57,177 bases of DNA from an uncultured Chlorobiaceae bacterium (GTDB taxonomy: Bacteria > Bacteroidota > Chlorobiia > Chlorobiales > Chlorobiaceae), in contig CAIQGA010000027.1 in NCBI GenBank assembly GCA_903871235.1, positions 1 to 57,177 of the forward strand, read 5' to 3'. Of this stretch, positions 40,584 through 56,510 are shown in pieces; position 1 is the first letter of the stretch, and each line of letters opens with the position of its first letter. The position numbers and the translations under genes are program-made. The notes under the pieces are model-generated. The model did not search any database. It was not told where the DNA came from and saw nothing but the letters and a program-made list of their open reading frames with translations.

Positions 40584-40997
40584 TCAATGAAAGCATATCT
40601 TAAACTCTTCCGGATTTTGGGCGAGCAGGCGAGCATTCGACTCGCTGGGAACCTCACCCTGCTCATAGTTTCGGTAGGTATTTGCGCCCAACCCAAGAAC
40701 TTCTGCCATTCTCGCAGCCGAAAGGCCCGGTAATACATATGGCACTTCTTCTTGCTTGATCTTGGGCAACGATTTTGGCTCCCTGATCTTCCCCGCTTTC
40801 ACCAGCCTCCGTTTCTCCGCATCAATCTCCTTCAGCAGTTCACTTGCAGGCTGGTCACTGGGGTCTTGCGGCACCAGCTTACCCTGCATGGCAAGGGTTA
40901 AAATCAGCTCCCGCAGTTTTTTGATGCCATCTGGTGCAACAAAGGCAATATCGAAATGCTGTTCGAGCAGTGCCCTGCTCCTGAAATGTTCATTCAT
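40584..40997 (-). pseudogene. HsdS N-terminal fragment fused to a helix-turn-helix fragment
   Basis: Residues 1-90 match the first 90 residues of the intact HsdS at 52927 almost throughout (LRELILTLAMQGKLVPQDPS is identical), including SDQPASELLKEI. After VPYVLP the sequence switches to GLSAARMAEVLGLGANTYRNYEQGE and ends with SNARLLAQNPEEFKICFH. This is an Xre-type helix-turn-helix of a kind recalled from antitoxins linked to the DUF4065/Panacea family. Neither target-recognition domain remains. The start overlaps the end of the hsdM relic by eight bases, just as in the intact copy. A deletion joining two genes is the likely origin. Confidence 0.75.
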
Positions 40998-41362
40998 GAC
41001 TTTCCTTCACCACAATCTTCACCACAGTTTCTCCCACAGTTTCTCCCACAGTTTTCACCACAGTCGTATGCAAATTGAACTCTTCGAGCAATTCCCGCTT
41101 CAGGGTGGTTTTGACGCCTTCGCCAAAAAGAAATCCATCAGGCAGCACAACGGCGGCACGACCTGTATTGTGGCGAAGCCGGTGCATGATCATCGCCATG
41201 AAAAGATCGGCGGTTTCGCGGGTCTGATACTTTTTGGGGAAGTTGTTCTCAATACCGTCCTCTTCCATACCCCCGAAAGGCGGATTGGTGACAATAATAT
41301 CGACACGCTCTTTCGGGCCGTAGTCTTTGAGCGGGCGGCTGAGGGTGTTGACAAAGGCAACG
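40990..41362 (-). pseudogene. HsdM internal fragment (relic of a second type I methyltransferase)
   Basis: The fragment covers the middle of HsdM, from NTLSRPLKDYGPKERVDIIV through the catalytic NPPFGG and FPKKYQTRETADLFMAMIMH to LKRELLEEFNLHT. It then passes in frame into a repeat tail of TVGE/TVVK units ending ESHE. That tail equals the small ORF lying between hsdM and hsdS in the intact copy, so the C-terminal part of hsdM was deleted. DNA over the first 115 bases from MEEDG is almost identical to 52219-52333. The N-terminal 250 residues are absent. Confidence 0.85.
41005..41064 (-). repeat. Five tandem 12-bp units in the hsdM-hsdS junction of the relic
   Basis: Five 12-bp units with consensus ACTGTGGKRGAA-like sequence on the minus strand (41005-41016, 41017-41028, 41029-41040, 41041-41052, 41053-41064). 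They encode TVVK, TVGE, TVGE, TVVK and IVVK. The intact locus has three related units at 52878-52913. Confidence 0.85.
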
Positions 41363-41616: not shown

Positions 41617-41880
41617 ATGATTGCAAACACTGTTGTGAGAGCACGAATCGACGAAAAAACCAAAACTGAAGCCGCCGCCGTGCTGGCCGCCATAGGGCTC
41701 ACCCTGTCCGATGCTGTGCGGCTTATGCTGATGCGGGTTGCCGCTGAAAAAGCATTGCCATTTGAACTGCTCATCCCGAATGCCAAGACAATAGAGGCGA
41801 TGGAAGAACTCCGTCAGGGAGGGCTAAAGTCGTATAACTCTATCGAAGATTTAATACAAGAGCTGAATGAGGAAGATTAA
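41617..41880 (+). CDS. RelB/DinJ-family antitoxin
   Basis: An 87-residue antitoxin with the ribbon-helix-helix start ANTVVRARIDEKTKTEAAAVLAAIGLTLSDAVRLML, the family signature, followed by the toxin-binding C-terminal part. It is preceded by AGGAAAAGAG, a good ribosome site. Its stop codon region overlaps the next gene's start (41867) by 14 bases, the normal coupling of an antitoxin-toxin pair. The gene appears intact although its partner toxin is not. Confidence 0.88.
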   Translation: MIANTVVRARIDEKTKTEAAAVLAAIGLTLSDAVRLMLMRVAAEKALPFELLIPNAKTIEAMEELRQGGLKSYNSIEDLIQELNEED

Positions 41881-42079
41881 AGGATCGAGCCATTTTAAAC
41901 GCGACTACCGCAGGGAGAAATCAGGCGTACACGGAAAAAAACTTGATACGCTTGTCGGAAAGTTGGTTGGTTGCCGCGATTGCCATATCAAGCCTGACCT
42001 TATCTTGATCTACCGCAAAACAGACGATGACATTCTTGAACTGGTGCGGCTTGGATCACACAGCGAACTCGGTTTATAA
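41867..42079 (+). pseudogene. YafQ/RelE-family toxin with an internal in-frame deletion
   Basis: A 70-residue product, against about 90 in normal YafQ toxins. The N-terminus SSHFKRDYRREKSGVHGKKLDTLV and the C-terminus CRDCHIKPDLILIYRKTDDDILELVRLGSHSEL match the family. The middle, normally about 20-25 residues with the P-x-x-Y/F-x-D-H-x-L-x-G-x-W segment, is missing: LDTLVGKLVG runs straight into CRDCHI. Several catalytic-site residues (DHxL) are lost, so the protein is probably an inactive toxin. The antitoxin overlap is kept. Confidence 0.7.
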
Positions 42080-42695: not shown

Positions 42696-43349
42696 TAAAG
42701 TGTTGTCAAGATAGACCCGTCCTTTTTTTGCTTCGACCGTTTTTCTGCTGAGGAAGCAGCCATTTTTGCTTTTTCTGCGCACGTCGCTTGCCGAAGCACT
42801 GGGAAAAAAAGTTCACGTCTCTATTCTGTAGTAAAAACGCCGCCGAGCAAGCACCCCGCTGCATGAAAAGCAGTCTACCCGGCTTCGCTCGCCGCCGGCT
42901 GCCGCCCCTCCGCAGCGGCAAAAAACTTGCTGGTAGCCTGACAACATTTCGCCCCCCGCGCCATCATCTACAAAAACACCTACAAACAGTCGCTCCCCTA
43001 CACAGAGGAACAAATTATATTGCACCAAAAGAGAGAAATATTTCGAGCAACGTGCTCCCTTTTTAAAAGCAAAGGTTATATTAACACTAAAATAACAACA
43101 GGATTACATCCCTTCCCACCATCTCATTCTCAAAGCACTGCTTCAGGGAAAAAAGATCATGTTGAGGAACGGCTGAAAAAATGCCCGACAGCTTTGGGCA
43201 AAAAATTATGGACCATCCAGAATGAAATCAGCGGTTTTTCAGAAGCAAACGAGCGATTAGTCATTGCATCATAGCGTTTCAATCTGAGCAAAGAAATTGA
43301 ATACATATCCCTCACAGTGGCAGGATATCAACGGAAAGGGTAACAAAGA
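42696..43349 (+). other. Decayed stretch before the defence operon
   Basis: About 650 bases with GC-rich parts (42830-42930) and no convincing gene. An open frame from about 42940 to 43274 reads YKNTYKQSLPYTEEQIILHQ and, near its end, HVEERLKKCPTALGKKLWTIQNEI. The latter resembles small antitoxin-type proteins by memory only. Probably further debris of toxin-antitoxin or restriction genes; also contains the promoter of the operon. Confidence 0.4.
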
Positions 43350-46085
43350 ATGCTTGGTTTAACTTTACGTGAAGAATTTCGTGGCAGGCGCCTCAAGGGC
43401 ACCGCCATTGAGCTTTCGAACGACTCCAACACCGGAGCTACTCAAATAGCGGCAAAGCAATTCCTCGAAATCACCTATCCGACGCATGACCTGCTTAAAG
43501 GCATCGAAGCCATAGGCCCCGATCAAGGCCGTCCCGTGGTGGTGATCGGTGAGAGAGGTCTCGGTAAATCGCATCTCTTGGCCGCCCTTTATCACGCCGT
43601 TTGCGACAAGGCCTCAACCAGCGCATGGCTCAATGCATGGGCTACAACACTGGGTGATCCGGGTATTAGCAATATTGCCCTCCGCGACGGAATGCTCGTT
43701 ATCGGCGAAAGTCTGCACCGCCAGCGCTACAAATTCCTCTGGGACCTCCTCTTGGAACGGCACCCTCACGGCACCTTCATCAAAGGAAAATGGGAGGGGA
43801 TGGGAGCGGCCAAAACAGATATCCCATCCGACGAACTCATCATCGAATTATTACAGCATACCCCCGTCATGCTGTTGCTCGACGAATTCCAGACCTGGTT
43901 CGACGGACTTACCAATACCAAGCAATACCCCTGGAAAAACTGGGCCTTCAACTTCATCCAGATACTTTCCGAAATTGCCAAAGAGCGCCCTGACCTGCTT
44001 GTGCTCGTCATATCGGTAAGAAACGGAGGAAGCGACGCCTATCAGCAGGTGCATCGGGTGAACCCTATTGCCATAGATTTCAAAGCCGGAGGCAACCCCG
44101 AACGAATCCAGCAGGATCGCCGCCGGATGTTGCTGCATCGGCTGTTCGACAACCGGCTGCAGATCTCAGCAGACTCAATAGCTTTTCTGCTTGCCTCACA
44201 TGTCTCTGAATATTTCCGTCTTCTCGATATACCCCCTGCCGAGCATGACCGGAAGCGCGAGGAGTTCTCAGAATCGTGGCCCTTCGCTCCGCATCTGCTT
44301 CGTTTGCTCGAAGAACAGGTACTGATTGCCACAGACGCTCAGGAAACCCGCGACATGATTCGCATTCTCGCCAACCTCTATAAAAGTCGAGGCGAAACCT
44401 CTTCAGTACTCACCGCAGCCGACTTCTCTCTTGACGATGATGCCTCAGGTATTGGCGCCTTGCTCGACTCCGTCTCCAACGAACATCATCGAACCCTGCG
44501 CGAAAAAGCCCAGCAGAACATTATTTCCGTCACCGAAGCCGTCCGCGACCACGCCCTCCGCGCTCCGCACCTTCAGGAAATAGTCGGGGCAATGTGGCTC
44601 CGCTCCATAGCTGTCGGCAACCTCGCAGGCGCAGAACCAGCAACACTACAGGTCGATATTACCCGCACGCGGCCCATGGATGACAATGCCTTCCAGGTCG
44701 AACTGGCAACCATTGTCGAAAACAGCTTCAACATCCATCAGGAAGGCGCCCGGCTGGTATTTCGTGAAGATGAAAATCCACGAGCCAAACTGATGGCCTG
44801 CGCACGAAATGATCGCCTCTTCACCGACGGTTCCGATCAGGCCCAGCTTGCCCGGCAACTACGCTATGTCATCAGTGGCAGTGAGGAGGTAGCCAAATCA
44901 TTCCGTGTTATAGCTTTGCCGAAATCCTGGCAGTCAGACCCATGGTCTTCACTTGACGAATCTGAAAATCCGGAACGATGGGATGAACGCCTGCCCATTC
45001 TTGTCTTGCCGGAAGAACCCGAAAAAATCGACCGGCAGCTTGGTCACTGGCTTAAAACCCATCTCCAGAAACGACGGAACACCGTCCGATTTCTCATCCC
45101 GCGTGCAGGAACAACCAACGCCTTTCAGGACCGTGACCTGCTCATTCTTGCCAGGGCAGAAATGAAAGCACTTGAATGGAGTGCCCAAAATCCAAAGTAC
45201 AAAAAACTCCACAAAGAATTTGAAACCACACTGCGTGACAACCTTAAAAAACGCTTCGACCGCTTCTCCGTCCTGCATCGCTGGAATTTTACCGATCCCG
45301 CTCAGTGTATTTTCATCGTCGAAACGCTCAGAAAGCAAGGTTCGCTGATACCCGAAAGTATTGAAGAAACCATGGTCGCCGATCTCTTCGTCCCCGAAGA
45401 CTTCGAAAACCTTGTGCTTCAAGCAGCGGCAGGCAACAATTCAGTCGGCAAACTTCTCCGTGAACTTCAGGAACCGCGACCGGCAGGGCAGGACTGCATA
45501 CCCTGGCTTGGCGAAACAGCCATGAAAGAGCGCATGCTTCGCCTCTGTTCACAAGGCAAAATCGCCATAAACCTCCGTGGCCTTGAATATCTCCAGACCC
45601 ATCCCGGTGAAGACGACGAAACCTCATGGCGTCGCCTTCGTCCTAAACTCTCTTATACCGGTCGTCAACTTGATGAAGTATACCTCATGTTGCCATCGGC
45701 AGTGCCTTCCACATCCGGCTCAGCTCAGGCGCAATCCGCATCATCAGGAGACGGGACTCTTTTCGGGGATGAGACGCAAACCCAAAACCCGCCAAATACC
45801 CTTAACGACCCGGTGGCTGGTGGCATAGGGCAACAACCATCCACTATCTTTGGTACCGGCGCCTCATCTGGTGCAGCCAGACAGCGTATTCCATTAAGCA
45901 ATCCGCCGACCTCATCGCTTAATCTTATTGGGAAGCTCGAAAGCTGGGGCATCGGCCCGGCCACACAGGTAGCCGAAGTCGCTATTAAAATCTCGGCAGC
46001 CACCGGTGCGCAGCTCAAAGAACTCCTCAAAAAACTCCCGGACGGCATGACCTTCGAACTCCAGCTTGAAAAGGAGGAGAATTGA
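43350..46085 (+). CDS. DUF499 P-loop ATPase of a BREX/Pgl-like defence module
   Basis: A 911-residue AAA+-like ATPase. The N-terminal part has QFLEITYPTHDL, then the Walker A GERGLGKSHLLAALYHAV (near residue 68) and the Walker B VMLLLDEFQTWFDGL (near 175), with sensor-like LVISVRNGGSD. The middle is helical. Near residues 780-850 a low-complexity linker rich in S, T, G, P and Q leads to a C-terminal domain (LIGKLESWGIGPATQVAEVAIKI). This arrangement is that of the DUF499 proteins found with PglZ phosphatases and DUF1156 methyltransferases in phage defence. First gene of the operon; the next gene overlaps its stop codon. Confidence 0.85.
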   Translation: MLGLTLREEFRGRRLKGTAIELSNDSNTGATQIAAKQFLEITYPTHDLLKGIEAIGPDQGRPVVVIGERGLGKSHLLAALYHAVCDKASTSAWLNAWATTLGDPGISNIALRDGMLVIGESLHRQRYKFLWDLLLERHPHGTFIKGKWEGMGAAKTDIPSDELIIELLQHTPVMLLLDEFQTWFDGLTNTKQYPWKNWAFNFIQILSEIAKERPDLLVLVISVRNGGSDAYQQVHRVNPIAIDFKAGGNPERIQQDRRRMLLHRLFDNRLQISADSIAFLLASHVSEYFRLLDIPPAEHDRKREEFSESWPFAPHLLRLLEEQVLIATDAQETRDMIRILANLYKSRGETSSVLTAADFSLDDDASGIGALLDSVSNEHHRTLREKAQQNIISVTEAVRDHALRAPHLQEIVGAMWLRSIAVGNLAGAEPATLQVDITRTRPMDDNAFQVELATIVENSFNIHQEGARLVFREDENPRAKLMACARNDRLFTDGSDQAQLARQLRYVISGSEEVAKSFRVIALPKSWQSDPWSSLDESENPERWDERLPILVLPEEPEKIDRQLGHWLKTHLQKRRNTVRFLIPRAGTTNAFQDRDLLILARAEMKALEWSAQNPKYKKLHKEFETTLRDNLKKRFDRFSVLHRWNFTDPAQCIFIVETLRKQGSLIPESIEETMVADLFVPEDFENLVLQAAAGNNSVGKLLRELQEPRPAGQDCIPWLGETAMKERMLRLCSQGKIAINLRGLEYLQTHPGEDDETSWRRLRPKLSYTGRQLDEVYLMLPSAVPSTSGSAQAQSASSGDGTLFGDETQTQNPPNTLNDPVAGGIGQQPSTIFGTGASSGAARQRIPLSNPPTSSLNLIGKLESWGIGPATQVAEVAIKISAATGAQLKELLKKLPDGMTFELQLEKEEN

Positions 46086-47077
46086 TGGCAATCAATGCCG
46101 ACATCCTGCATACCCTGACTAAAGGCTCTCCAGAAGAGGCATGGCACGTTATCATGACCCATACCCTCGGAATTGCCAGCAGGTCACTTGATGCCGTTCA
46201 GTTGCCCGGTGAAATTATAAACCGTGACCGTGAAATAGGCGCATTCGACCACTTCCTTGCCACAAGCGGCTGGGAGCTGTGGCAGATTTTCAGTAATGTC
46301 GTTGAAAAAACCTCAGATCGGCTGGTGCGTTGGTGGACAGAACCCTACCATGCCAAGGCGGTGCTGATCCTCGATGGCCTCTCGCTTCGTGAATTACCCT
46401 GGCTTCTTCAGGGAGCAAAAGAACACGGTTTCACCCTGCATCAGGTTGCCGCGACCGCCTCTGAGCTACCCGGCAAGACCAACGAATTTGCACGTGCGCT
46501 TGGTTTCAATTCCCGCAGTCAGTTGCAAAACAACGGTGGGGGATTCTCTCATAAACTCCAGCCGGCCAGCACCGAATGTGTCGGAATGCCATGGAAAGAC
46601 TGCCAGTCACTTATTGATAGCGCACTGAACTGGATTTTCTGGCATCAATGGCCCGACAGCAAAGTCCATGACTGCGCCGGGGCGGGCCGTGGCCTTGAAA
46701 TCCTCGCCAACGATGCCCAGGAGCAACTGACCGATAAAGAGTTCTGGTGCTTTGTCGAACGCCTTGCAACCGGTCGAAGGCTTGTTATCACCTCCGATCA
46801 CGGCTACGCTGCCACCGGCCATTTCTCCGACGCCGACGGTGACGTAGCGCAATTTCTCAAGCAAACCTTCGCCAGCGGGCGGAGCACTGCTGGCGTAAAT
46901 GACGGCGGGCCATCTATTCCGCCAGTAGCACTCAGCATCAACAACATGCACGGCCAACACCTGCTCGCCCTTGGCCGCAGAAAATGGCGAAGTCAGGGAG
47001 GATACCCAACCCTTGCTCATGGTGGACTATCGCTGCTTGAGGTACTCTCGCCCTGGATCGAAATTTCAAAAATCTGA
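46085..47077 (+). CDS. Compact PglZ-like phosphatase-superfamily protein
   Basis: A 330-residue protein of the alkaline-phosphatase superfamily, much shorter than usual PglZ proteins (600-900). Core motifs are AVLILDGLSLRELPWLL (metal/nucleophile strand, near residue 95), RLVITSDHGYAATGHF (the S-D-H-G motif, near 235) and LAHGGLSLLEVLSPWIEI (C-terminal H-G-G motif). The ATG at 46085 follows a strong AAGGAGG and overlaps the DUF499 stop (TGATG). PglZ is the constant component of BREX/Pgl systems. Its enzymatic target is not established. Confidence 0.8.
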   Translation: MAINADILHTLTKGSPEEAWHVIMTHTLGIASRSLDAVQLPGEIINRDREIGAFDHFLATSGWELWQIFSNVVEKTSDRLVRWWTEPYHAKAVLILDGLSLRELPWLLQGAKEHGFTLHQVAATASELPGKTNEFARALGFNSRSQLQNNGGGFSHKLQPASTECVGMPWKDCQSLIDSALNWIFWHQWPDSKVHDCAGAGRGLEILANDAQEQLTDKEFWCFVERLATGRRLVITSDHGYAATGHFSDADGDVAQFLKQTFASGRSTAGVNDGGPSIPPVALSINNMHGQHLLALGRRKWRSQGGYPTLAHGGLSLLEVLSPWIEISKI

Positions 47078-47087
47078 CACCGCATAT

Positions 47088-47837
47088 ATGGACAGGATTC
47101 CAAAGCGACTCAAAAAAGAGCCCCTCATAGAGGCAATCTGGCAGGTACAGTTCGAACCCACGGGTGATATGCAAATAGGCGATTTATTGCCCGGCATGCT
47201 CTATGCAGCCTTGAGGAACGATCATCCGCAACTGCAGCTCCATCGTCTGCCCGCAGCCGATATTCCTCCTCAGGTAGCTCAAATTGACCCCAACCTTCGC
47301 CACGTGGCAAAATACCGGATGGAAGAAACAGGCTTGCCATTTCTCTTCCAGGTCGGCGACCGTACCGTAACACTCAACTGCCGAAGGCCATACGCTGGCT
47401 GGGACGCATTCAAGGCAAAAACCGTTGCCCTTATTGATATTCTCGACCAGAGCGGTCTGATTCCTGTGCCCCAGCGCCACTCCTTACGCTATATCGACCT
47501 GCTCGAAATGGAACCTGCCCCCAACCTCTCGGCACTTCAACTGAGCATTGGTCTCGGAACCCTCGACACGCAGGCACAACCCCTGCAGATTCGTCTTGAA
47601 CTGCGCGCTGAAAACTGCATGCATATTGTGCAAATCGCAACACCCGCCGAAGCCGCTTTACCGGAAGGAATAAGGATCGGCAGTGTCATCGACATAGAAA
47701 CCGTTCCTGTCCCGGAAGCAACATCATGGCAGGGCATTCGCGATCAACTTGATCAACTGCATACCTGTTCCAAACAGCTTTTCTTTGAGCAGATCCTCAC
47801 AACCGAGGCCATTGAGCGCCTCGAACCGGAGTATTGA
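47088..47837 (+). CDS. TIGR04255-family protein
   Basis: A 249-residue protein starting MDRIPKRLKKEPLIEAIWQVQF at 47088; the upstream extension of the frame lies inside the PglZ-like gene. The opening L-x-x-x-P-L-I-E-A-x-x-x-V-x-F and the later FQVGDRTVTLNCRRPYAGWDAF and RHSLRYIDLLEM fit TIGR04255, a sporadically distributed family often seen in accessory islands. Its molecular role is unknown. It lies 10 bases after the PglZ-like gene and one base before the next gene, so it belongs to the operon. Confidence 0.75.
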   Translation: MDRIPKRLKKEPLIEAIWQVQFEPTGDMQIGDLLPGMLYAALRNDHPQLQLHRLPAADIPPQVAQIDPNLRHVAKYRMEETGLPFLFQVGDRTVTLNCRRPYAGWDAFKAKTVALIDILDQSGLIPVPQRHSLRYIDLLEMEPAPNLSALQLSIGLGTLDTQAQPLQIRLELRAENCMHIVQIATPAEAALPEGIRIGSVIDIETVPVPEATSWQGIRDQLDQLHTCSKQLFFEQILTTEAIERLEPEY

Positions 47838-47838
47838 A

Positions 47839-48126
47839 ATGCTGACATCAACCATAGACATCAATAGCATACCCTTCACTTGGCGTTCGGCTGTGCAGCA
47901 GATCCAGCAGAAAGCGAAAACATACACCGTTCCGGTCTCCGGTTTTCTCGACCGTACGACCTATATGGCTGGGAACGCCACAACGATGCAGCAATACCAT
48001 CCTGTACGAAACAGTATAGACGCATTAGGCTGGTCGGCAGCCGATGCACTGGAAACCTACTTCCGCTTGCGAAGCTTTGCCGAAGACTGGGACTCTCCCG
48101 ACATGGAGGGCTATGATGAGCTATAA
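47839..48126 (+). CDS. Putative antitoxin of the PemK/MazF pair
   Basis: A 95-residue protein from the ATG at 47839, one base after the previous stop. The C-terminal part YFRLRSFAEDWDSPDMEGYDEL is acidic and of a kind recalled from proteins encoded upstream of PemK toxins, and would suit toxin wrapping. The N-terminal part shows no recognisable DNA-binding fold. The stop lies inside the toxin gene (overlap about 11 bases). Antitoxin function is inferred from position. Confidence 0.55.
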   Translation: MLTSTIDINSIPFTWRSAVQQIQQKAKTYTVPVSGFLDRTTYMAGNATTMQQYHPVRNSIDALGWSAADALETYFRLRSFAEDWDSPDMEGYDEL

Positions 48127-48463
48127 ACGAGGTGAGGTCATCCTTGTCCGGTTTCCCAACACCGATCTCAAGACATATAAAAAACGTCCAGCCCTCGTTG
48201 TGCAGGGAGATGGTCTGAACACCGGCCTGCCGCAAAAGATCGTCGCCATGATAAGCTCAAACCTTAAACGAACAGGTCCGACCAGAGTAATGGTCAGCAA
48301 GAACGACCCTGCGGGCCGGGCAATGGGCCTCATCTCTGATTCCGTCGTGGTAACCGATAACCTCGCAACTGTTCTTGAGAGGGAAATAGATAAAACAATA
48401 GGCTACTGTCCGAACATGACCACGGTCGAGAGTGCACTTAAAATCACCTTGGGAGTATCGTGA
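48116..48463 (+). CDS. PemK/MazF-family toxin (mRNA endoribonuclease)
   Basis: A 115-residue toxin; the ATG at 48116 (or 48113) follows GGAGGG. SYKRGEVILVRFPNTDLKTYKKRPALVV is the conserved start with the basic P-x-R/K-P-A-L-V-V loop. IVAMISSN and DSVVVTDNLATVLEREIDKTIGY complete the fold. It cleaves RNA in known members. It is embedded in the defence operon, its TGA overlapping the next ATG (TGATG). Intact in sequence. Confidence 0.88.
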   Translation: MSYKRGEVILVRFPNTDLKTYKKRPALVVQGDGLNTGLPQKIVAMISSNLKRTGPTRVMVSKNDPAGRAMGLISDSVVVTDNLATVLEREIDKTIGYCPNMTTVESALKITLGVS

Positions 48464-48987
48464 TGGTAACAAAAAAAGAGTGGCTTGCTCAGGAAGTTGC
48501 CAAAGCTGTTGGTGCCGGCAAGGTTGTTGCCCTTGAAACCGTTGACTTCAACGACCCGAATCGTCCCAAAACCTGCCTTGAAGTCGATTTTCCGATTTTG
48601 CCGGTGAATCAGGTTGCCATTATCGAAGGCAATGCCGGTAAACCCATCTACCAGATGTCGAAATGGTGGGCACGGCGTCGGTCGAGCGTTTTCCGTTCAA
48701 TGCTTATTGCCGCTGCAACAAAAGCCCCCGAAGATTTGTCTCATGCAGCAAAGCTCGTTTGGGACGACTACTACGCAAACCATCAAAAACGTGGTGCTTT
48801 CAAAAACTTGAAAGTAGCTGACATTTTTATGGGAGGAGGGACTACTCTTGTTGAGGGTTCGCGCCTTGGAATGCATACAATCAACAAACTGCTTGAAGCT
48901 GACGGTTGGCGTTTCTTTGCTGAAAAAAACCTTCCCTATAAGCAGACGATCAAGACTCTCCATACAAAACCAAAGCCGGGACGCTGA
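48463..48987 (+). CDS. Truncated DUF1156 DNA methyltransferase
   Basis: A 174-residue product against roughly 900 in full-length members. It keeps LEVDFPILPVNQVAIIEGNAG, KPIYQMSKWWARRRSSVFRS and LKVADIFMGGGTTLVEGSRLGM, the SAM-binding motif. Directly afterwards it changes to TINKLLEADGWRFFAEKNLPY and a short basic end. The catalytic NPPY/DPPY motif is absent, so it should not methylate DNA alone. The tail is not part of DUF1156; it may come from another restriction gene. HsdR starts on the base after its stop. Confidence 0.8.
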   Translation: MVTKKEWLAQEVAKAVGAGKVVALETVDFNDPNRPKTCLEVDFPILPVNQVAIIEGNAGKPIYQMSKWWARRRSSVFRSMLIAAATKAPEDLSHAAKLVWDDYYANHQKRGAFKNLKVADIFMGGGTTLVEGSRLGMHTINKLLEADGWRFFAEKNLPYKQTIKTLHTKPKPGR

Positions 48988-51369
48988 ATGATGAACAAAA
49001 AACAGCTTACCGAACGCGATATCTGCACCAAATACATCACCCCTGCGCTTGAACGGTCTGGATGGGATATTGTGACCCAGGTTCGCGAAGAGTTTCCGCT
49101 GACAAAGGGGCGCATAATTGTTCGCGGCAAGCTGCACACCCGTGCTCAGCACAAGCGTGTCGATTATGTACTTTTCTACAAACCCAATATTCCCATTGCC
49201 GTTATTGAGGCCAAAGAGAACAGCCACTCTCTCGGCGATGGCATGCAGCAGGCGCTTGGTTATGCCGATATGCTTCAGGTACCCTTTGTCTTCAGCTCCA
49301 ACGGTGACGGGTTCCTTTTCCATAACAAAATCGCCACTGACGGCATCACGGAACGCGAACTCTCTCTGGATGAGTTTCCCTCTGCCGAGTCACTCTGGGA
49401 AAGCTGGTCTCTGCATCGGGGCATAACCGGAAAGCAAGAGAGCTTGATTACCCAGGACTACTACAGCGACGGGAGCAACAAAAGCCCTCGTTACTATCAG
49501 TTTCTGGCCATTAACAAAACCATTGAGGCAATTGCTCAGGGCCAGAAGCGCATTTTGCTGGTCATGGCTACCGGAACCGGTAAAACCTTTACCGCTTTTC
49601 AAATTATCTGGCGTCTCTGGAAGTCGAAGGCAAAAAAGCGAATCCTCTTTCTTGCCGACCGCAACATTCTGGTTGACCAGACCATCACCAACGACTTCAA
49701 GCCCTTTGGCCCGGCCATGACCAAGATCAAAAAGCGGCAGATCAACAAGTCGTTTGAGATCTACCTCTCACTCTATCAGGCCGTCACCGGTACCGAAGAG
49801 GAGCAGAACATCTACCGGCAGTTCACCCCTGATTTTTTTGATCTGATTGTGGTCGATGAGTGCCACCGGGGCAGTGCCGCAGAGGACTCAGCCTGGCGGC
49901 AGATTCTTGAATACTTCTCCTCGGCCACACAGATCGGCATGACGGCGACGCCCAGGGAGAGCAAAGAGATTTCCAACAGCGACTACTTCGGCAAACCGAT
50001 CTACACCTACTCCCTCCGAAAAGGTATTGAAGATGGTTTTCTGGCCCCGTACAAGGTGGTTCGTATTGATATTGACAAGGATCTTGAGGGCTGGCGACCT
50101 GATAAAGGGATGGTGGACAAGCTGGGCAATGCAATAGAAGACCGCATCTACAACCAGAAGGATTTCGACAAGAGCATGATTCTGGAGCAGCGCACCATCC
50201 TTGTTGCAAAAAAGATCAGCGACTTTCTCCGCCAGACCAACCGCTTCGACAAAACCATCGTCTTCTGCGAAAACATCGATCATGCCGAGCGGATGCGACA
50301 AGCACTGGTCAACGAAAACAGCGATCTGGTTGCCCAGAATTCCCGCTATGTTGTCCGCATTACCGGCGACAGCGATGAGGGCAAGGCAGAACTCGATAAC
50401 TTCATTTTTCCTGAATCCCGCTATCCGGTCATTGCCACAACCTCCAAATTGATGTCGACCGGTATTGATGCCCAGACCTGCAAGCTCATCGTACTCGATC
50501 AGATCATTTTATCGATGACGGAGTTCAAGCAGAGAATCGGGCGCGGCACCAGAATCAACGAAGAGTACGACAAATACTATTTCACCATCATGGACTTCAA
50601 AAAAGCCACCGAGCTTTTTGCCGATCCGGATTTTGATGGCGATCCCGTACAGATCTACACTCCGCAGCATCCTGACGACTCACCGGTTCCGCCGGACACT
50701 GCGGAAAATGAACAATCCGAAAAGGAGTTGCTCTATCCGGAGAGTGATGATGAAGGTCGTGACTGGCAGCATGTGGGAGATGATGACGATAGTGTAGATG
50801 GCCCTCGCGTCCGCCGCTATGTGGTCGATAATGTTGCAGTGAAGGTTATTGCCGAACGGGTGCAGTATTTCGATGCCGATGGCAAACTCATTACCCAGTC
50901 GCTCCGGGAGTACACCCGAAAAGCACTGTCGAAGGAGTTTGCTTCACTTGAAGAGTTTCTCCGTCGATGGAATCATGCTGAGAAAAAGCAGGTAATTCTT
51001 GAAGAGCTGGCCCGCGAAGGAGTCTTTTTCGATGCACTCTCCGAAGAGATCAGCCGTGACCTCGACCCGTTTGACCTCATCTGTCATATCGCCTGGGACA
51101 AGCCGCCCCTGACCCGCAGGGAGAGGGCGGAGCAGGTTAAAAAGCGCAACTACTTTACCCGCTACGGCGATCAGGCGCGGCGGGTGCTCGAAGCCCTTCT
51201 CGACAAATATGCCGACGAAGGCATTGTGCAGATTGAAGCTCCGCAGATACTCTCTATTGCTCCATTCACCTTTTTCGGCACACCTGTCGAGATCATTCGT
51301 ATTTTCAATGGCTTTGAGAGCTATCAGCAAGCCGTGCACGAACTCGAACAAGCGCTCTACAGCGCATAA
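48988..51369 (+). CDS. hsdR: Type I restriction enzyme, R subunit
   Basis: DNA-translocating nuclease subunit, 793 residues. The N-terminal PD-(D/E)xK nuclease is visible as VDYVLFYKPNIPIAVIEAKENSHS (near residue 55), with the E-x-K at its end. Helicase motifs are VMATGTGKTFTAFQIIW (Walker A, near 193), VVDECHRGSAAED (DECH box), GMTATPRES, VFCENIDHAERM, TSKLMSTGIDAQTC and EFKQRIGRGTRI. The C-terminal region (about 640-790) should contact the HsdM/HsdS core. It is in the EcoEI-like group. Starts immediately after the truncated DUF1156 gene and is followed by hsdM after 12 bases. Confidence 0.93.
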   Translation: MMNKKQLTERDICTKYITPALERSGWDIVTQVREEFPLTKGRIIVRGKLHTRAQHKRVDYVLFYKPNIPIAVIEAKENSHSLGDGMQQALGYADMLQVPFVFSSNGDGFLFHNKIATDGITERELSLDEFPSAESLWESWSLHRGITGKQESLITQDYYSDGSNKSPRYYQFLAINKTIEAIAQGQKRILLVMATGTGKTFTAFQIIWRLWKSKAKKRILFLADRNILVDQTITNDFKPFGPAMTKIKKRQINKSFEIYLSLYQAVTGTEEEQNIYRQFTPDFFDLIVVDECHRGSAAEDSAWRQILEYFSSATQIGMTATPRESKEISNSDYFGKPIYTYSLRKGIEDGFLAPYKVVRIDIDKDLEGWRPDKGMVDKLGNAIEDRIYNQKDFDKSMILEQRTILVAKKISDFLRQTNRFDKTIVFCENIDHAERMRQALVNENSDLVAQNSRYVVRITGDSDEGKAELDNFIFPESRYPVIATTSKLMSTGIDAQTCKLIVLDQIILSMTEFKQRIGRGTRINEEYDKYYFTIMDFKKATELFADPDFDGDPVQIYTPQHPDDSPVPPDTAENEQSEKELLYPESDDEGRDWQHVGDDDDSVDGPRVRRYVVDNVAVKVIAERVQYFDADGKLITQSLREYTRKALSKEFASLEEFLRRWNHAEKKQVILEELAREGVFFDALSEEISRDLDPFDLICHIAWDKPPLTRRERAEQVKKRNYFTRYGDQARRVLEALLDKYADEGIVQIEAPQILSIAPFTFFGTPVEIIRIFNGFESYQQAVHELEQALYSA

Positions 51370-51381
51370 CAAAGAACTACC

Positions 51382-52845
51382 ATGCCGATCGGAACACTGA
51401 TCAAAACCATACAAGACATCATGCGCAAGGATGTCGGCGTTGATGGCGATGCCCAGCGCATCAGCCAAATCGTCTGGCTCCTCTTTCTGAAAATATTCAA
51501 CGATCGTGAGGAAGAGTGGCAGCTTACCACTCCAAAGTATAAAACCCCGCTTGAGAGCCGGTTTCGCTGGCAGAACTGGGCAAAAAATCCTGAAGGCATA
51601 ACCGGAGAAGAGCTGATCGACTTTGTCAACATCGACCTCTTTCCCTCACTCAAAAGGCTCGCCTACGTTGCCGGGGTCTCACCACATGGCAGGGTGATTG
51701 GCTCGGTCTTTGAGGATGCCTACAACTACATGAAATCTGGCACCCTGCTCCGGCAGGTGATCAACACCATCGAAGAGGAGGTCGATTTCAACTCTTCGAG
51801 TGATCGCCACCTCTTCAACGACATCTACGAAAAAATTCTTGCTGACTTGCAATCTGCCGGAAACGCTGGCGAATACTACACTCCTCGTGCGGTCACCCAG
51901 TTTATGGTCGAAACGCTCGACCCGCAACTCGGCGAATCAGTGCTCGATCCCGCCAACGGCACCGGAGGTTTTCTCACCAACACTATCGAACACCTCAAAG
52001 AGCAGGTAAAAAATGCTGATGACCTGAAAATTTTGCAGGAGAGCATTCACGGAGTGGAAAAGAAGCCTCTGCCGCACATGCTCGCCTTAACCAACATGAT
52101 GCTGCATGGTATTGACGTGCCTACCAACATCCTGCACGGCAACACCCTCAGCCGCCCGCTCAAAGAGTACGGCCCGAAAGAGCGTGTCGATATTATCGTC
52201 ACCAATCCGCCTTTCGGAGGTATGGAAGAGGACGGTATTGAGAACAACTTCCCCAAAAAGTACCAGACCCGCGAAACCGCCGATCTTTTCATGGCGATGA
52301 TCATGCACCGGCTCAAGCACAACACAGGCCGAGCTGCTGTGGTGCTGCCTGATGGCTTTCTCTTTGGCGAAGGAGTCAAAACCACCTTGAAGCGCGAACT
52401 GCTCGAAGAGTTCAGCCTGCACACCATTGTCCGTCTGCCGAAAGGTGTTTTCAGCCCCTACACCAGCATTTCAACCAACATCCTCTTTTTCGAAAAGGGC
52501 GGCCCGACAAAAGAGGTCTGGTTCTTTGAACACCCCTACCCGGAGGGCTACAAAGCCTACTCCCGAACCCGACCCCTGACAATCGAAGAGTTCGACCTGG
52601 AAAAAGCATGGTGGGGCGGTGCGGAGCGCAACGGACGCAAAACCACCCCATACGCATGGAAAATCACGGCAGAGGAGATTGCCGCTCGCAACTTCAACCT
52701 CGACTGCAAAAATCCTCATGAAGTGGAGGTGAACCACCGCGACCCTGAAGAGCTGATGGAGGAGTACCAGGAAATTGTGAGAAAACTCGAAGCCGCACAA
52801 GCTGCTCTGAAACAGGAACTCATGCAGGCACTGGGAGGCAACTGA
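51382..52845 (+). CDS. hsdM: Type I restriction-modification DNA methyltransferase, M subunit
   Basis: N6-adenine methyltransferase subunit of 487 residues. The N-terminal helical domain is LIKTIQDIMRKDVGVDGDAQ and RISQIVWLLFLKIF. The SAM motif is VLDPANGTGGFLTNTI (near 190, after GEYYTPRAVTQFMVE), and the catalytic motif IIVTNPPFGGMEED (near 270). TADLFMAMIMHRL and LPKGVFSPYTSISTNILFF follow. Length and motifs are complete, so it should be active with HsdS. A short relic of the same gene lies inverted at 40990-41362. Confidence 0.95.
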   Translation: MPIGTLIKTIQDIMRKDVGVDGDAQRISQIVWLLFLKIFNDREEEWQLTTPKYKTPLESRFRWQNWAKNPEGITGEELIDFVNIDLFPSLKRLAYVAGVSPHGRVIGSVFEDAYNYMKSGTLLRQVINTIEEEVDFNSSSDRHLFNDIYEKILADLQSAGNAGEYYTPRAVTQFMVETLDPQLGESVLDPANGTGGFLTNTIEHLKEQVKNADDLKILQESIHGVEKKPLPHMLALTNMMLHGIDVPTNILHGNTLSRPLKEYGPKERVDIIVTNPPFGGMEEDGIENNFPKKYQTRETADLFMAMIMHRLKHNTGRAAVVLPDGFLFGEGVKTTLKRELLEEFSLHTIVRLPKGVFSPYTSISTNILFFEKGGPTKEVWFFEHPYPEGYKAYSRTRPLTIEEFDLEKAWWGGAERNGRKTTPYAWKITAEEIAARNFNLDCKNPHEVEVNHRDPEELMEEYQEIVRKLEAAQAALKQELMQALGGN

Positions 52846-52850
52846 AACAC

Positions 52851-52934
52851 ATGGAATCCAATCGTATTGATACAGGAACTGTGGTGATGACTGTGGGAGA
52901 AACTGTGGGAGAAGTCGAGGAGAGTCATGAGTGA
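52851..52934 (+). CDS. 27-codon repeat ORF between hsdM and hsdS
   Basis: ATG at 52851, TGA at 52932. The peptide MESNRIDTGTVVMTVGETVG ends with EVEESHE. The ORF lies five bases after hsdM and overlaps the hsdS start by eight bases, so it could couple translation of hsdS. It contains three 12-bp tandem units. A related sequence with five units is fused to the hsdM relic. Whether the peptide has a function is unknown. Confidence 0.5.
   Translation: MESNRIDTGTVVMTVGETVGEVEESHE
52878..52913 (+). repeat. Three tandem 12-bp units before hsdS
   Basis: ACTGTGGTGATG followed by two copies of ACTGTGGGAGAA. The unit length keeps the reading frame (TVVM, TVGE, TVGE), so copy-number change would lengthen the peptide rather than switch it off. 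Confidence 0.85.
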
Positions 52935-54630
52935 TAATGAGAAGAGCAGGGCGCTGCTTGAGAAATATTTCGATACGGCCTTTGCCGCACCGGAGGGGAT
53001 CAAAAAACTGCGGGAGCTGATTTTAACGCTTGCCATGCAAGGCAAACTTGTACCGCAAGACCCCAGTGACCAGCCTGCGAGTGAACTGCTGAAGGAGATT
53101 GAGGCGGAGAAACGTCGATTGGTGAAAGCTGGGAAGATCAGAGAGCAAAAACTGCTGCCAGAGATCAAGCCTGAGGAGAGGCCTTATGAATTGCCTGAAT
53201 GTTGGGCTTGGGTCAGATTTGGGAGCATTGCGCAACACAATTCAGGAAAAACACTTGATAAAAGTCGTAACAAGGGCCAATATCGAGATTACATAACAAC
53301 ATCAAATCTTTATTGGGGTTATTTCGAGTTGGATAATGTCCGCCAGATGCCAATCAAAGATGAAGAGATAGAAAAGTGTACTGCCCGAAAAGGAGACCTG
53401 TTAATTTGTGAAGGCGGGGAAGCTGGCCGAGCGGCTGTATGGTTTTATGATAATGAAGTTTGCTTTCAGAATCATGTTCATCGCGCACGGTTCTATTGCG
53501 ATATTGATCCGTACTACGGTTATCGTTTTTTTGAAAAACTGAATGCCACTGGTGAAATAAATAATTATCGGCAGGGTGTTGGAATCTCAAATATGTCAGG
53601 TAAAGTACTTGCATCAATAGCATTGCCTCTCCCACCACTCGCTGAACAGCAACGCATCGTCGCAAGAATCGACCAGCTCATGGCGCGTTGTGATGAACTG
53701 GAAAAGCTGAGAGCCGAGCGTGAAGCGAAACGCCTGACCGTTCATATTTCTGCCCTGAACCGGCTGTTTGAAGCGCAGGGGAACGACAGCTTTACCGATG
53801 CTTGGCACTTCATCAACCGTCACTTCGGAGAACTCTACTCCGTAAAACAGAACGTGACCGAACTGCGCAAAGCCATCCTCCAGCTTGGCGTCATGGGCAA
53901 GCTGGTGCCGCAAGACCCGAACGATCAACCTGCCAGCGAACTGCTGAAGGAGATCGAAGCCGAGAAACGGAGATTGGTGCAAGAAGGAAAGATCAAACTG
54001 CAAAAGCCGTTACCCGAGATCAAATCAGAAGAACAACCTTATGTACTGCCCGAAGGGTGGGAGTGGGTGAGACTTGGATCATTTTGTGAAAAGGTAAGTG
54101 ATGGATTTCACCATACACCGAAGAAGATTTCGCAAGGGGTTCGATACGTATCTGCTACACACATCTATAACGGAAGAATCGATTGGAATAGTGGACTTTA
54201 TGTGTCGGAGGAAGAATATTTTGAATTGTATAAAAAAACAAAACAGGGATATGGTGACATATTGATTGTTAATCGTGGTGCAGGTTGTGGTGATGCGGCA
54301 GTTGTTGACACAGATGGACGATTTTGTTTTCAGAATGCAGCGATAATTGGATTTAGTCAGAATCACGTTGATGGACAATACATCCTGTGTTTTTTGCACG
54401 CCAGCAGGAAGCATTTTCTTGAAAAATTTATTCAGGGTGGCGCCCAGCCAATGCTTTCAAATAAATTACTTGCAACCCATATTTTAGCTCTTCCCCCTCT
54501 CGCCGAACAACACCGTATCGTTGCCAAAATCGACCAACTCATGGCCCTATGTGACCAACTGGAACAGCAGATTGTTGCAACAGCAAGCAAACAGTCCGCA
54601 CTTCTTAATGTCGTAATGGCAAAGATATAA
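52927..54630 (+). CDS. hsdS: Type I restriction-modification specificity subunit S
   Basis: DNA-recognition subunit of 567 residues with the two-fold design of HsdS. Conserved segment 1 (LRELILTLAMQGKLVPQDPS, near residue 30) precedes target-recognition domain 1 (about 100-235, ending LPLPPLAEQQRIVARIDQLM). Conserved segment 2 repeats it (LRKAILQLGVMGKLVPQDPN, near 315) before domain 2 (about 380-525, ending LALPPLAEQHRIVAKIDQLM). The recognition sequence cannot be read from this. The two domains differ, so a bipartite asymmetric target is expected. Confidence 0.94.
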   Translation: MSDNEKSRALLEKYFDTAFAAPEGIKKLRELILTLAMQGKLVPQDPSDQPASELLKEIEAEKRRLVKAGKIREQKLLPEIKPEERPYELPECWAWVRFGSIAQHNSGKTLDKSRNKGQYRDYITTSNLYWGYFELDNVRQMPIKDEEIEKCTARKGDLLICEGGEAGRAAVWFYDNEVCFQNHVHRARFYCDIDPYYGYRFFEKLNATGEINNYRQGVGISNMSGKVLASIALPLPPLAEQQRIVARIDQLMARCDELEKLRAEREAKRLTVHISALNRLFEAQGNDSFTDAWHFINRHFGELYSVKQNVTELRKAILQLGVMGKLVPQDPNDQPASELLKEIEAEKRRLVQEGKIKLQKPLPEIKSEEQPYVLPEGWEWVRLGSFCEKVSDGFHHTPKKISQGVRYVSATHIYNGRIDWNSGLYVSEEEYFELYKKTKQGYGDILIVNRGAGCGDAAVVDTDGRFCFQNAAIIGFSQNHVDGQYILCFLHASRKHFLEKFIQGGAQPMLSNKLLATHILALPPLAEQHRIVAKIDQLMALCDQLEQQIVATASKQSALLNVVMAKI

Positions 54631-54980
54631 GGCTTATGAGGCTCAAATCAGTTTACGTAAGCCAGAGTCTCCAAGCATCAGCATAGGTAACGACGGCATT
54701 GATTTGTCAGATTAAGCATTCACTTGTTATAATATCAGACCTTCTTGTGGAATAGCGTTGACAAAAACATTTGCTGCCGTGGTATTCACCCGACCGGACG
54801 CGCAGACCAACTGACGCCTCCCCTACAGCCAATCATCATGCAAAACAGGCGCAGAGAAAATAAAGCGAAAACAAAAAGGCCACGGAAACAGTCCAGAGCC
54901 TTGTTATCAACCGGGAAAAGCCCAATCCATTGACGCTACATCTTTAAATCAGGGTGTGATTACATGCAATTTTAATTCAA
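54631..54980 (+). other. Intergenic stretch after the restriction operon
   Basis: About 350 bases between hsdS and the convergent Panacea-linked gene pair. No gene, RNA or clear terminator was recognised. Confidence 0.4.
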
Positions 54981-55439
54981 CTATTCCGGATAGAACCCAA
55001 ACCTCTTTTTATCTTTTCCTTTGATTTTTGGTGAGTTGATGAGTTTGTTTTTCACAGCAGTCAAATCCACCTCGCATAACTTTCCAATCACAACCCCGGG
55101 TCTGTTTTTTATTGCGAGCTCTATTTCTTTTTGCTCTCTAATCACAAATTCTGAACAGTCTACAAAAGAGTCATGATCAAGATATGTTCTTCCTGCTGCC
55201 AGAAAAGAGAGATGGAGCTCTTTGAGTTCAGGGGAGTAATTGATCTTCTCATTGATCTCTGAATTGATGTATACAGTTGCCAGGCATAGCCCATCAATAT
55301 TCTTTCCTACAATGATAAATCGTTTTTCTTTTGGCGGTTTTGTATCCTTGACGTAGAGTTTAAGAACACTCCCAACTTCCAGATTTCTTCTGGCGTAATC
55401 AGCCTTAAAGACTTCCGGAAAAAATTCACCTAAACTCAT
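54981..55439 (-). CDS. Unrecognised protein downstream of a Panacea antitoxin (candidate toxin)
   Basis: A 152-residue protein, MSLGEFFPEVFKADYARRNL and onwards, with a barrel-like opening (VGSVLKLYVKDTKPPKEKRFIIVG) and a lysine-rich C-terminus (SPKIKGKDKKRFGFYPE). No known toxin motif was recognised. Its start overlaps the Panacea gene's stop by four bases (ATGA), as toxins do with their antitoxin. The toxin role is inference from that pairing. Otherwise it is an uncharacterised protein. Confidence 0.6.
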   Translation of the reverse strand: MSLGEFFPEVFKADYARRNLEVGSVLKLYVKDTKPPKEKRFIIVGKNIDGLCLATVYINSEINEKINYSPELKELHLSFLAAGRTYLDHDSFVDCSEFVIREQKEIELAIKNRPGVVIGKLCEVDLTAVKNKLINSPKIKGKDKKRFGFYPE

Positions 55440-55987
55440 TCAAATAAAGCTAAGCGGTTCTCCCGACTCTCTTTGATATACTCAATCATGTCATTCCCGG
55501 CACCGCCACACGTTGCAACATCAAGGAGATCTATTTCACTATTGGATACCGCTTTTAGCCATGCCTTATCATGGGATTTCTCTGTTAAATCTGAAAACTT
55601 GAGATGGTAATTCTCTTCGATGGATTCGTCAATACATCTCATCTCAGATTCGGACAAATAATCAAGATCAGGGCTCTTTTTTGCCTTTACGGTGTGTTTA
55701 TTGACTTGTAGTTCAAAGTACGGAGTAAACTGGTCTTTTTGTGAAGTAAAAAGACCCTCGCCCCGTAACGATTTTAAAATATCGTAAGCCATTGACGGTA
55801 CCGGGCCATTGGCCATGGCGATATAGGTATCATCAGTAATAGCAGAACCATACCTCGACAGATGCTTCTGATCCGCGAAATACAGAATTTTAAATACCTT
55901 ATGAAAATCACAGATGCCACCTGACTTCTGGATGATATACAATAAGGTATTAACGGTAATGGCAATTTTTTCGGATGGTGAGTTCAT
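55436..55987 (-). CDS. Panacea-domain (SocA-like, DUF4065) antitoxin
   Basis: A 183-residue protein from the ATG at 55987; the frame extends to 56023 without support. NTLLYIIQKSGGICDFHKVFKILYFADQKHLSRYG is the hallmark of the DUF4065/Panacea domain. It is followed by ITDDTYIAMANGPVPSMAYDIL and the polar tail with LSESEMRCIDESIEE and AWLKAV. The domain is known to neutralise many unrelated toxins. First gene of a two-gene minus-strand operon. Confidence 0.85.
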   Translation of the reverse strand: MNSPSEKIAITVNTLLYIIQKSGGICDFHKVFKILYFADQKHLSRYGSAITDDTYIAMANGPVPSMAYDILKSLRGEGLFTSQKDQFTPYFELQVNKHTVKAKKSPDLDYLSESEMRCIDESIEENYHLKFSDLTEKSHDKAWLKAVSNSEIDLLDVATCGGAGNDMIEYIKESRENRLALFE

Positions 55988-56510
55988 GGTTTTAATGTAT
56001 AAAATTTTTGCATTTCCACACATTTTTTTAAGGCATACCGTTTAACAACCATATTCATCTCCGATTCCTCACCAAACAATACCAATATTCTTCGTATTTC
56101 TGCGATTTTGTCAAAACTTTCTGCTCGTACTCGATAGTAAAAAAGATGTAAAATCATACGATTTATGCAACATCTGCCCTAAAATGAATGCCAACTGACG
56201 CCGCCCCCATATTCGTACTGGCCTTTTTATTACCCTTATCACCATGAAGCAATTAAAAAAGCCCATCATTGCACAGAGAAGGGTACCCTTCAACGGCCAG
56301 AGGCCGACCTTCATGCAAAACAGGCAAATATTCACTTTACCCATCTCAGACAACTTCGTTTTCAAGAGTCAAGGGAAATCCCATGACGGCAAGGTCAATG
56401 TTCGGATACTTGTTGAGCTGCAAAAAAAAACTTTTGACTGAAAGAGCTGTTCGGGTTTACGCTTTACAGTAGATACAAAAGTATCAAGAGCATGTTGAAC
56501 TTGCAACAAT
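55988..56510 (-). other. Intergenic stretch before the insertion sequence
   Basis: About 520 bases without a recognised gene. It holds the promoter of the Panacea pair. A 65-codon plus-strand frame (56244-56441) shows no family character. Confidence 0.4.

Follow-up and report, generated by a model that had tools for sequence, protein, structure and literature searches.

Does a stretch of tightly packed genes in an uncultured green sulfur bacterium (Chlorobiaceae), in which a module resembling BREX runs directly into a complete type I restriction-modification system, encode one combined defence system or two systems that have come to lie side by side? The window, by which we mean the whole stretch of DNA analysed (57,177 nucleotides), carries these genes on the forward strand between positions 43350 and 54630 (Table 1). 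A preliminary description had counted ten tightly joined genes and read them as one chimeric system in which HsdM-HsdS may mark self DNA. The common strand and the close joins are borne out by the ORFs of the window, but the genes number nine, and one join, that of hsdM to hsdS, is a gap of 81 bases. Otherwise the joins are very tight: the sequence TGATG is shared by the DUF499 stop and the PglZ-like start at 46085 and again by the PemK gene and the DUF1156 piece at 48463, the PemK start (48116) lies inside the end of the small gene, and the remaining spacings are 10 bases before the TIGR04255 gene (47088), 1 base before the small gene (47839), none before hsdR (48988) and 12 bases before hsdM (51382). 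Scans of the window for promoter-like sites (7 vs. 9.7 expected) and terminator-like sites (20 vs. 14.7 expected) were of no use.

Table 1. Features of the locus, in positions of the window (BR, BREX-related).
Feature	Position	Strand	Basis
Inverted hsdM/hsdS relic 5' of the BR module	40584-41350	-	inverted repeats with the intact genes
Left flank common with G080, continuous with the G080 DUF499 gene	42952-43349		part of a 95.2% match
DUF499 AAA+ ATPase, Type-3 BR, 911 aa	43350-46085	+	PF04465, E 3.6e-9
PglZ-like protein, 330 aa	46085-47077	+	tblastn, 67% to Klebsiella copy
TIGR04255 protein, variable cargo slot	47088-47837	+	TIGR04255, E 1.2e-42, scanned from 47058
Small 95-aa protein	47839-48126	+	38% homologue at the same place in L152
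PemK/MazF-like toxin	48116-48463	+	PF02452, E 1.1e-14; 74% in L152
DUF1156 methyltransferase N-terminal stub, residues 1-137 of 1071	48463-48874	+	89% to Klebsiella
Tail of the stub ORF, DNA preceding hsdR in genus relatives	48875-48987	+	blastn
HsdR, EcoAI family, 793 aa	48988-51369	+	NF046051, 1202.6 bits
HsdM, 487 aa	51382-52845	+	PF02384, 8e-74
HsdS, 567 aa, two target-recognition domains	52927-54630	+	PF01420, two stretches; PDLC03179, 5.2e-150
Right flank common with G080	54788-56207		96.7% to G080 contig C61, 5435-6856

The first protein matches the DUF499 family at 35.4 bits against a cut-off of 23, which identifies it as the DUF499 ATPase expected in Type-3 BREX-related (BR) systems. 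Its Walker A (GERGLGKS) and Walker B (LLLDE) motifs are preserved, it differs from 73 relatives at 5 of 431 near-invariant positions, and its profile has no match in the PDB up to E 0.1. The name PglZ is weak for the second protein from the window alone and appears only partly firmed by relatives. The PADLOC PglZ model matches at E 0.0037, weak by itself, and no Pfam family matches up to E 0.1; PorX emerges weakly from a profile search (E 0.097, ranked after a designed protein at 8.8e-4) and, again weakly, as the 12 best Foldseek matches (best E 0.014) of a mediocre predicted structure (pLDDT 66.7). The motifs DG, SDHGYA and HGG are preserved in this protein, and the four near-invariant positions at which it differs (I44, G167, R202, and S277), as well as its changed last residue, lie outside them; the first three changes also occur in the G019 translation, while S277 does not. 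The small 95-aa protein has no family match above cut-off and is a possible antitoxin partner of PemK.

The BREX-like character claimed for the module is confirmed by loci from other bacteria, whose 5' half it matches. A tblastn search of plasmids with the DUF499 protein returned 56 records, of which 12 span 80% or more of the protein, with a best plasmid identity of 80% to a Klebsiella protein, and the DUF499 proteins of related 5' halves from many bacteria are 70-84% identical to it. The three complete plasmid loci that we opened (Klebsiella, Ensifer, and Aminobacter) have the order DUF499, PglZ-like gene, optional cargo, DUF1156 of about 1071 aa, a 166-aa protein and an SNF2 helicase, and the complete Klebsiella copy matches Hma, BrxH, and DrmD models, HmaB and HmaA included. 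From a scan of genome contigs, the best 80 of 228 DUF499 relatives were kept, with up to 10 kb of flank and often less (tblastn, E <= 1e-8). The PglZ-like gene lies beside DUF499 in 75 of these loci; DUF1156 is reached in 72, extends past residue 137 in 71 and is full length (at least 1060 of 1071 residues) in 66, and the 166-aa gene and the downstream SNF2 helicase are present in 66 and 64, respectively. Among the 14 loci that have no full DUF1156, five lose the gene within 54 bases of a contig end and eight end before it; in locus L139 (7346-10598) the methyltransferase is broken at about residue 700, before a 371-aa ORF that looks transposase-like. Judged by gene content, the plasmid and genome loci match the Type-3 BREX-related (Hma-like) system of PMC12839542, for which the available text of that source gives as parts DUF499, a stand-alone active PglZ, a DUF1156 N6-methyltransferase, a BrxHII-like SNF2 helicase and iSTAND (PMC12839542). 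Separately, nine of 20 listed plasmid records (H12-H20) match only DUF499 residues 214-911, and shortened DUF499 copies therefore also travel on enterobacterial plasmids; in L006, a member of this shortened group, the downstream genes are annotated up to SNF2.

The closest counterpart of the arrangement in the window is L152, from a Methylococcaceae UBA4132 MAG, with DUF499, PglZ, TIGR04255, a 93-aa gene, PemK and a DUF1156 of 1075 aa, followed by the 166-aa gene, an ABC-type ATPase, a 234-aa protein and SNF2. The preliminary description did not recognise the gene order as a described type; together with the plasmid loci, L152 shows that up to the breakpoint it is the ordinary order plus cargo, in L152 with an intact methyltransferase behind it. 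L152 is the only locus with the full window cargo among the best 80 of 228, and TIGR04255 occupies the corresponding slot in L133 as well as in L152 and stands at a contig end in L083. The TIGR04255 gene belongs to a cargo slot of variable content, located between the PglZ and methyltransferase genes, which these comparisons reveal inside Type-3 BR operons; TIGR04255, PemK, and MazF do not occur in the available main text of PMC12839542. This slot (loci L080-L158) exceeds 200 bases in 21 of 72 loci, and the cargo includes SIR2-HerA in four loci (both genes partial in L108), an AAA ATPase with an S8 subtilase in L095 (a gap of similar size is found in seven more loci), a GmrSD type IV nuclease in L102, and TIGR04255 with PemK (L152) or with a PIN toxin (L133). 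In L133, an unassigned 118-aa gene takes the small-gene position before the PIN toxin, and the co-occurrence of the small gene with PemK in L152 hints at a possible new antitoxin type.

That the module had lost its own methyltransferase holds true, and the point of loss can be placed. The DUF1156 piece scores 21.2 bits against a Pfam cut-off of 24, so that its name, weak from the window alone, is made firm by its relatives: its match to the Klebsiella protein ends abruptly after residue 137, at about base 48,875 (tblastn), and none of its 47 positions invariant among 70 relatives is changed. The N6-methyltransferase of Type-3 BR is thus represented by residues 1-137 of 1071 only. The remaining 37 codons of the ORF match sequence lying just 5' of hsdR in G062, G083, G076, and G068, four members of the genus (blastn), with matches in that position at loci L037, L038, L044, and L045 and, for the 3' part, also L021; the last part of the tail matches G033 too, and its first 50-60 bases match five further places in the genus (G076, G005, G062, G065, and G030). 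A guess by eye that the tail was a HicA remnant is ruled out by this origin. As for the lost half, the rest of DUF1156 has only 13-residue chance matches elsewhere in the window and none in the genome at E <= 1e-20, where the stub is the sole match. The SNF2 helicase is missing from the locus, and the genome's matches at E <= 1e-60 are just 33% and 31% identical. The 166-aa protein has no match in the window, so an iSTAND component is wanting there, in so far as this protein is iSTAND at all, a candidate assignment; its predicted structure is good (pLDDT 86.4), but its best Foldseek match has E 0.18. Elsewhere in the same genome (contig C133, L014) lies a second, distant DUF1156 gene of 995 aa (26-27% identical to this DUF1156 family), accompanied by an SNF2-helicase-like fragment.

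A complete type I system does follow, as the preliminary description had stated. In this family, HsdM-HsdS methylates DNA and HsdR translocates and cuts unmodified DNA. The HsdR score lies far above the NF046051 cut-off of 550 bits, the protein matches PDB entry 3h1t (E 1.9e-162), and it keeps EAK, GTGKT, and DECH, which we take to be its nuclease and helicase motifs. HsdM also matches PF12161 and preserves NPPF; its motif I reads DPANGTGGF, with N at a position that is C in 13 of 14 aligned relatives, the exception being G033. With the two Methylase_S stretches of HsdS, both HsdM and a two-domain HsdS are in place. Because HsdR and HsdM retain their motifs, the type I system is probably active and its restriction functional. 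The DNA of 48900-54700 matches 40 of 101 genomes, its own included (E 0.001), with hsd alignments of at least 3 kb in 14 other genomes of the 101. Twenty related hsd loci were fetched, some with only part of hsdR, and 15 of them show at least 2 kb 5' of hsdR (the other five less or none); at E 1e-8 none of the 20 contains DUF499, PglZ, DUF1156, or SNF2, except for the tail piece in L038. From sequence comparison, then, hsdRMS is an ordinary type I unit that is common in the genus. A relic of hsdM and hsdS lies inverted upstream of the BR module, repeating 52140-52430 (91%, hsdM) and 52918-53208 (81%, hsdS); its hsdS piece runs into a helix-turn-helix ORF, and it has no alignment to the two G080 contigs fetched.

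The same site in G080, of the same genus, indicates what probably stood there before. This genome has the closest DUF499 (98% over 841 aa), its contig C92 matches window positions 42952-45872 at 95.2%, and on its contig C61 the end of a DUF1156 gene (residues 720-1069 aligned), the 166-aa gene and an SNF2 gene (83% to Klebsiella) lie 5' of the common right flank, with a HEPN/RES gene also before that flank. Its copy is split over the two contigs, and searches of the assembly located neither PglZ nor the cargo nor the initial two thirds of DUF1156; G080 does not figure in the list of genomes that have an hsd match. From the flank matches and these BR 3' genes, it follows that the window has hsdRMS where G080 has the 3' half of a BR system. 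G019 carries the 5' half up to a contig end inside DUF1156, at 92-98% identity per protein, and has no hsd match, but its assembly is only 81% complete. Other genes lie around the operon in the window: at 41617-42079 a RelB antitoxin gene precedes a YafQ-like toxin ORF that covers just positions 47-86 of an 88-position family and is possibly truncated, and at 55439-56023 on the reverse strand, within the flank common to G080, a SocA/Panacea antitoxin-like gene adjoins a 152-aa gene.

Taken together, because of the gene content, the breakpoint, the G080 flanks and the absence of any match to the lost half in the assembly, we consider it very probable that the locus is a truncated Type-3 BR system whose 3' half was replaced in place by a type I cassette. 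The site would once have held a Type-3 BR system with DUF499, PglZ, the TIGR04255-small gene-PemK cargo, DUF1156, the 166-aa gene and SNF2, from which recombination would have exchanged everything from methyltransferase codon 138 to beyond the helicase for the cassette common in the genus. The hsdRMS genes would work as an ordinary type I system, probably now read at least partly from the promoter of the BR operon, and the PemK pair may still be a toxin-antitoxin unit. Since a BR module that has neither methyltransferase nor helicase would be able neither to mark self DNA nor to restrict, what is left of it looks like a recent remnant, probably non-functional, with residual function possible. 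In Type I BREX, restriction as a rule depends on the full set of components, according to the available text of PMC13326643, and by analogy the remnant should not restrict.

The state of the retained genes bears on the age of the replacement and also on the alternative that DUF499, PglZ, TIGR04255, and PemK form a self-sufficient reduced system (e.g., an abortive module) that is under selection and can dispense with methyltransferase and helicase. The four ORFs are free of stops and frameshifts, their catalytic motifs are preserved, and pairwise dN/dS of the retained BR genes (0.06-0.14 against G080 or G019) indicates purifying selection, as it does for HsdR and HsdM (0.04-0.11 against relatives; HsdS 0.31). 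Polarised changes on the window branch vs. the other number 8 vs. 5 for DUF499 (4 ambiguous), 3 vs. 2 for its C-terminus (6 ambiguous), 4 vs. 4 for PglZ (11 ambiguous), 2 vs. 2 for PemK (1 ambiguous, one outgroup) and 0 vs. 2 for the DUF1156 stub, and all 7 in TIGR04255 are ambiguous (3 outgroups); this test, in which the small gene was left out, is based on few events and does not tell a recent loss apart from function that was kept. Neither clear decay nor a clear surplus of changes on the window branch is seen in the retained genes. The stub cannot methylate and yet keeps all 47 positions, so that the absence of decay suggests that the event was recent; the replacement looks recent, and retained function fits the data as well. 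A useless stub that is equally undecayed shows that such preservation can reflect recency, and no other locus of the reduced kind occurs among the 71 of 80 in which DUF1156 is seen past residue 137, L139 being broken later. The reduced system is therefore improbable, though it fares best among the alternatives.

We give still less credence to the chimera first proposed, in which DUF499-PglZ would act as sensor and effector, HsdM-HsdS would supply the self-marking and PemK a back-up. Tight joins on one strand, intact ATPase, PglZ, and Hsd motifs, and purifying selection on all parts speak for it. However, its order is not conserved: HsdR, HsdM, and HsdS have no match at E 1e-8 in any of the 80 DUF499 loci, just as DUF499 is missing from the 20 hsd loci, and the stub-hsdRMS junction occurs in one of 65 genomes of the genus, the window's own. 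Moreover, as far as DUF1156 the genes are joined much as in the complete system of L152, and the helicase and the 166-aa gene are missing as well. Independent movement of the two halves, named beforehand, along with separate promoters and split transcripts, as the sign that they are only neighbours, is what the gene content of these 80 and 20 loci shows. A variant in which the DUF499-PglZ-toxin half, once its methyltransferase and helicase were gone, has been rewired to the type I system it captured, so as to sense when restriction fails or is inhibited while HsdM-HsdS again marks self, seems to us barely credible. The literature searched, seen in part, yielded no DUF499-hsdRMS hybrid, and an exact 36-base junction pattern had no match in viral_contigs, an uninformative result. 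Just as faint is the chance of a misjoin between contigs of a BR locus and an hsd locus. The assembly is fragmented (234 contigs, 3.96% contamination) and the junction was seen once; yet no displaced copy of the lost half turned up in the assembly, whose completeness is scored at 99.95%, the searched stretches of the junction match it at one place only, and on either side the outer flank agrees with the BR locus of G080, so that two misjoins would be needed, one at each end of the cassette. Canonical BREX can be set aside, with no BrxC/DUF6079, BrxL, BrxA, or BrxB model among the matches listed and NCBIfam PglX models matching only HsdM, far below their cut-offs.

The apparent new hybrid thus resolves into two known systems that look like spliced neighbours. 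The G080 flanks show how parts of a defence island are swapped in place, and the locus cautions that an operon may look intact and be perfectly joined and yet contain only half of a system. Compared with Type-3 BR, as far as the available text of PMC12839542 describes it, the window is alike in its DUF499 ATPase, its putative stand-alone PglZ and its DUF1156-type stub, and differs in that the methyltransferase is cut after residue 137 and the helicase and the 166-aa protein (candidate iSTAND) are gone. The available text of PMC8565338 describes Hma as an operon of three genes, for a helicase, a methyltransferase, and an ATPase, hence one that has no PglZ; the window resembles it in the DUF499-type ATPase (HmaC, E 5.7e-4), the only one of the three that stays intact here. 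The gene order from DUF499 to DUF1156 is that of L152, where DUF1156 is full length. With respect to EcoAI-family type I systems, HsdR, HsdM, and HsdS are complete with their motifs, and the one difference found is the position of the cassette behind a truncated BR operon. In sum, the locus is very probably a new copy of a known system, though a truncated one, to which replacement in place has joined an ordinary type I system.
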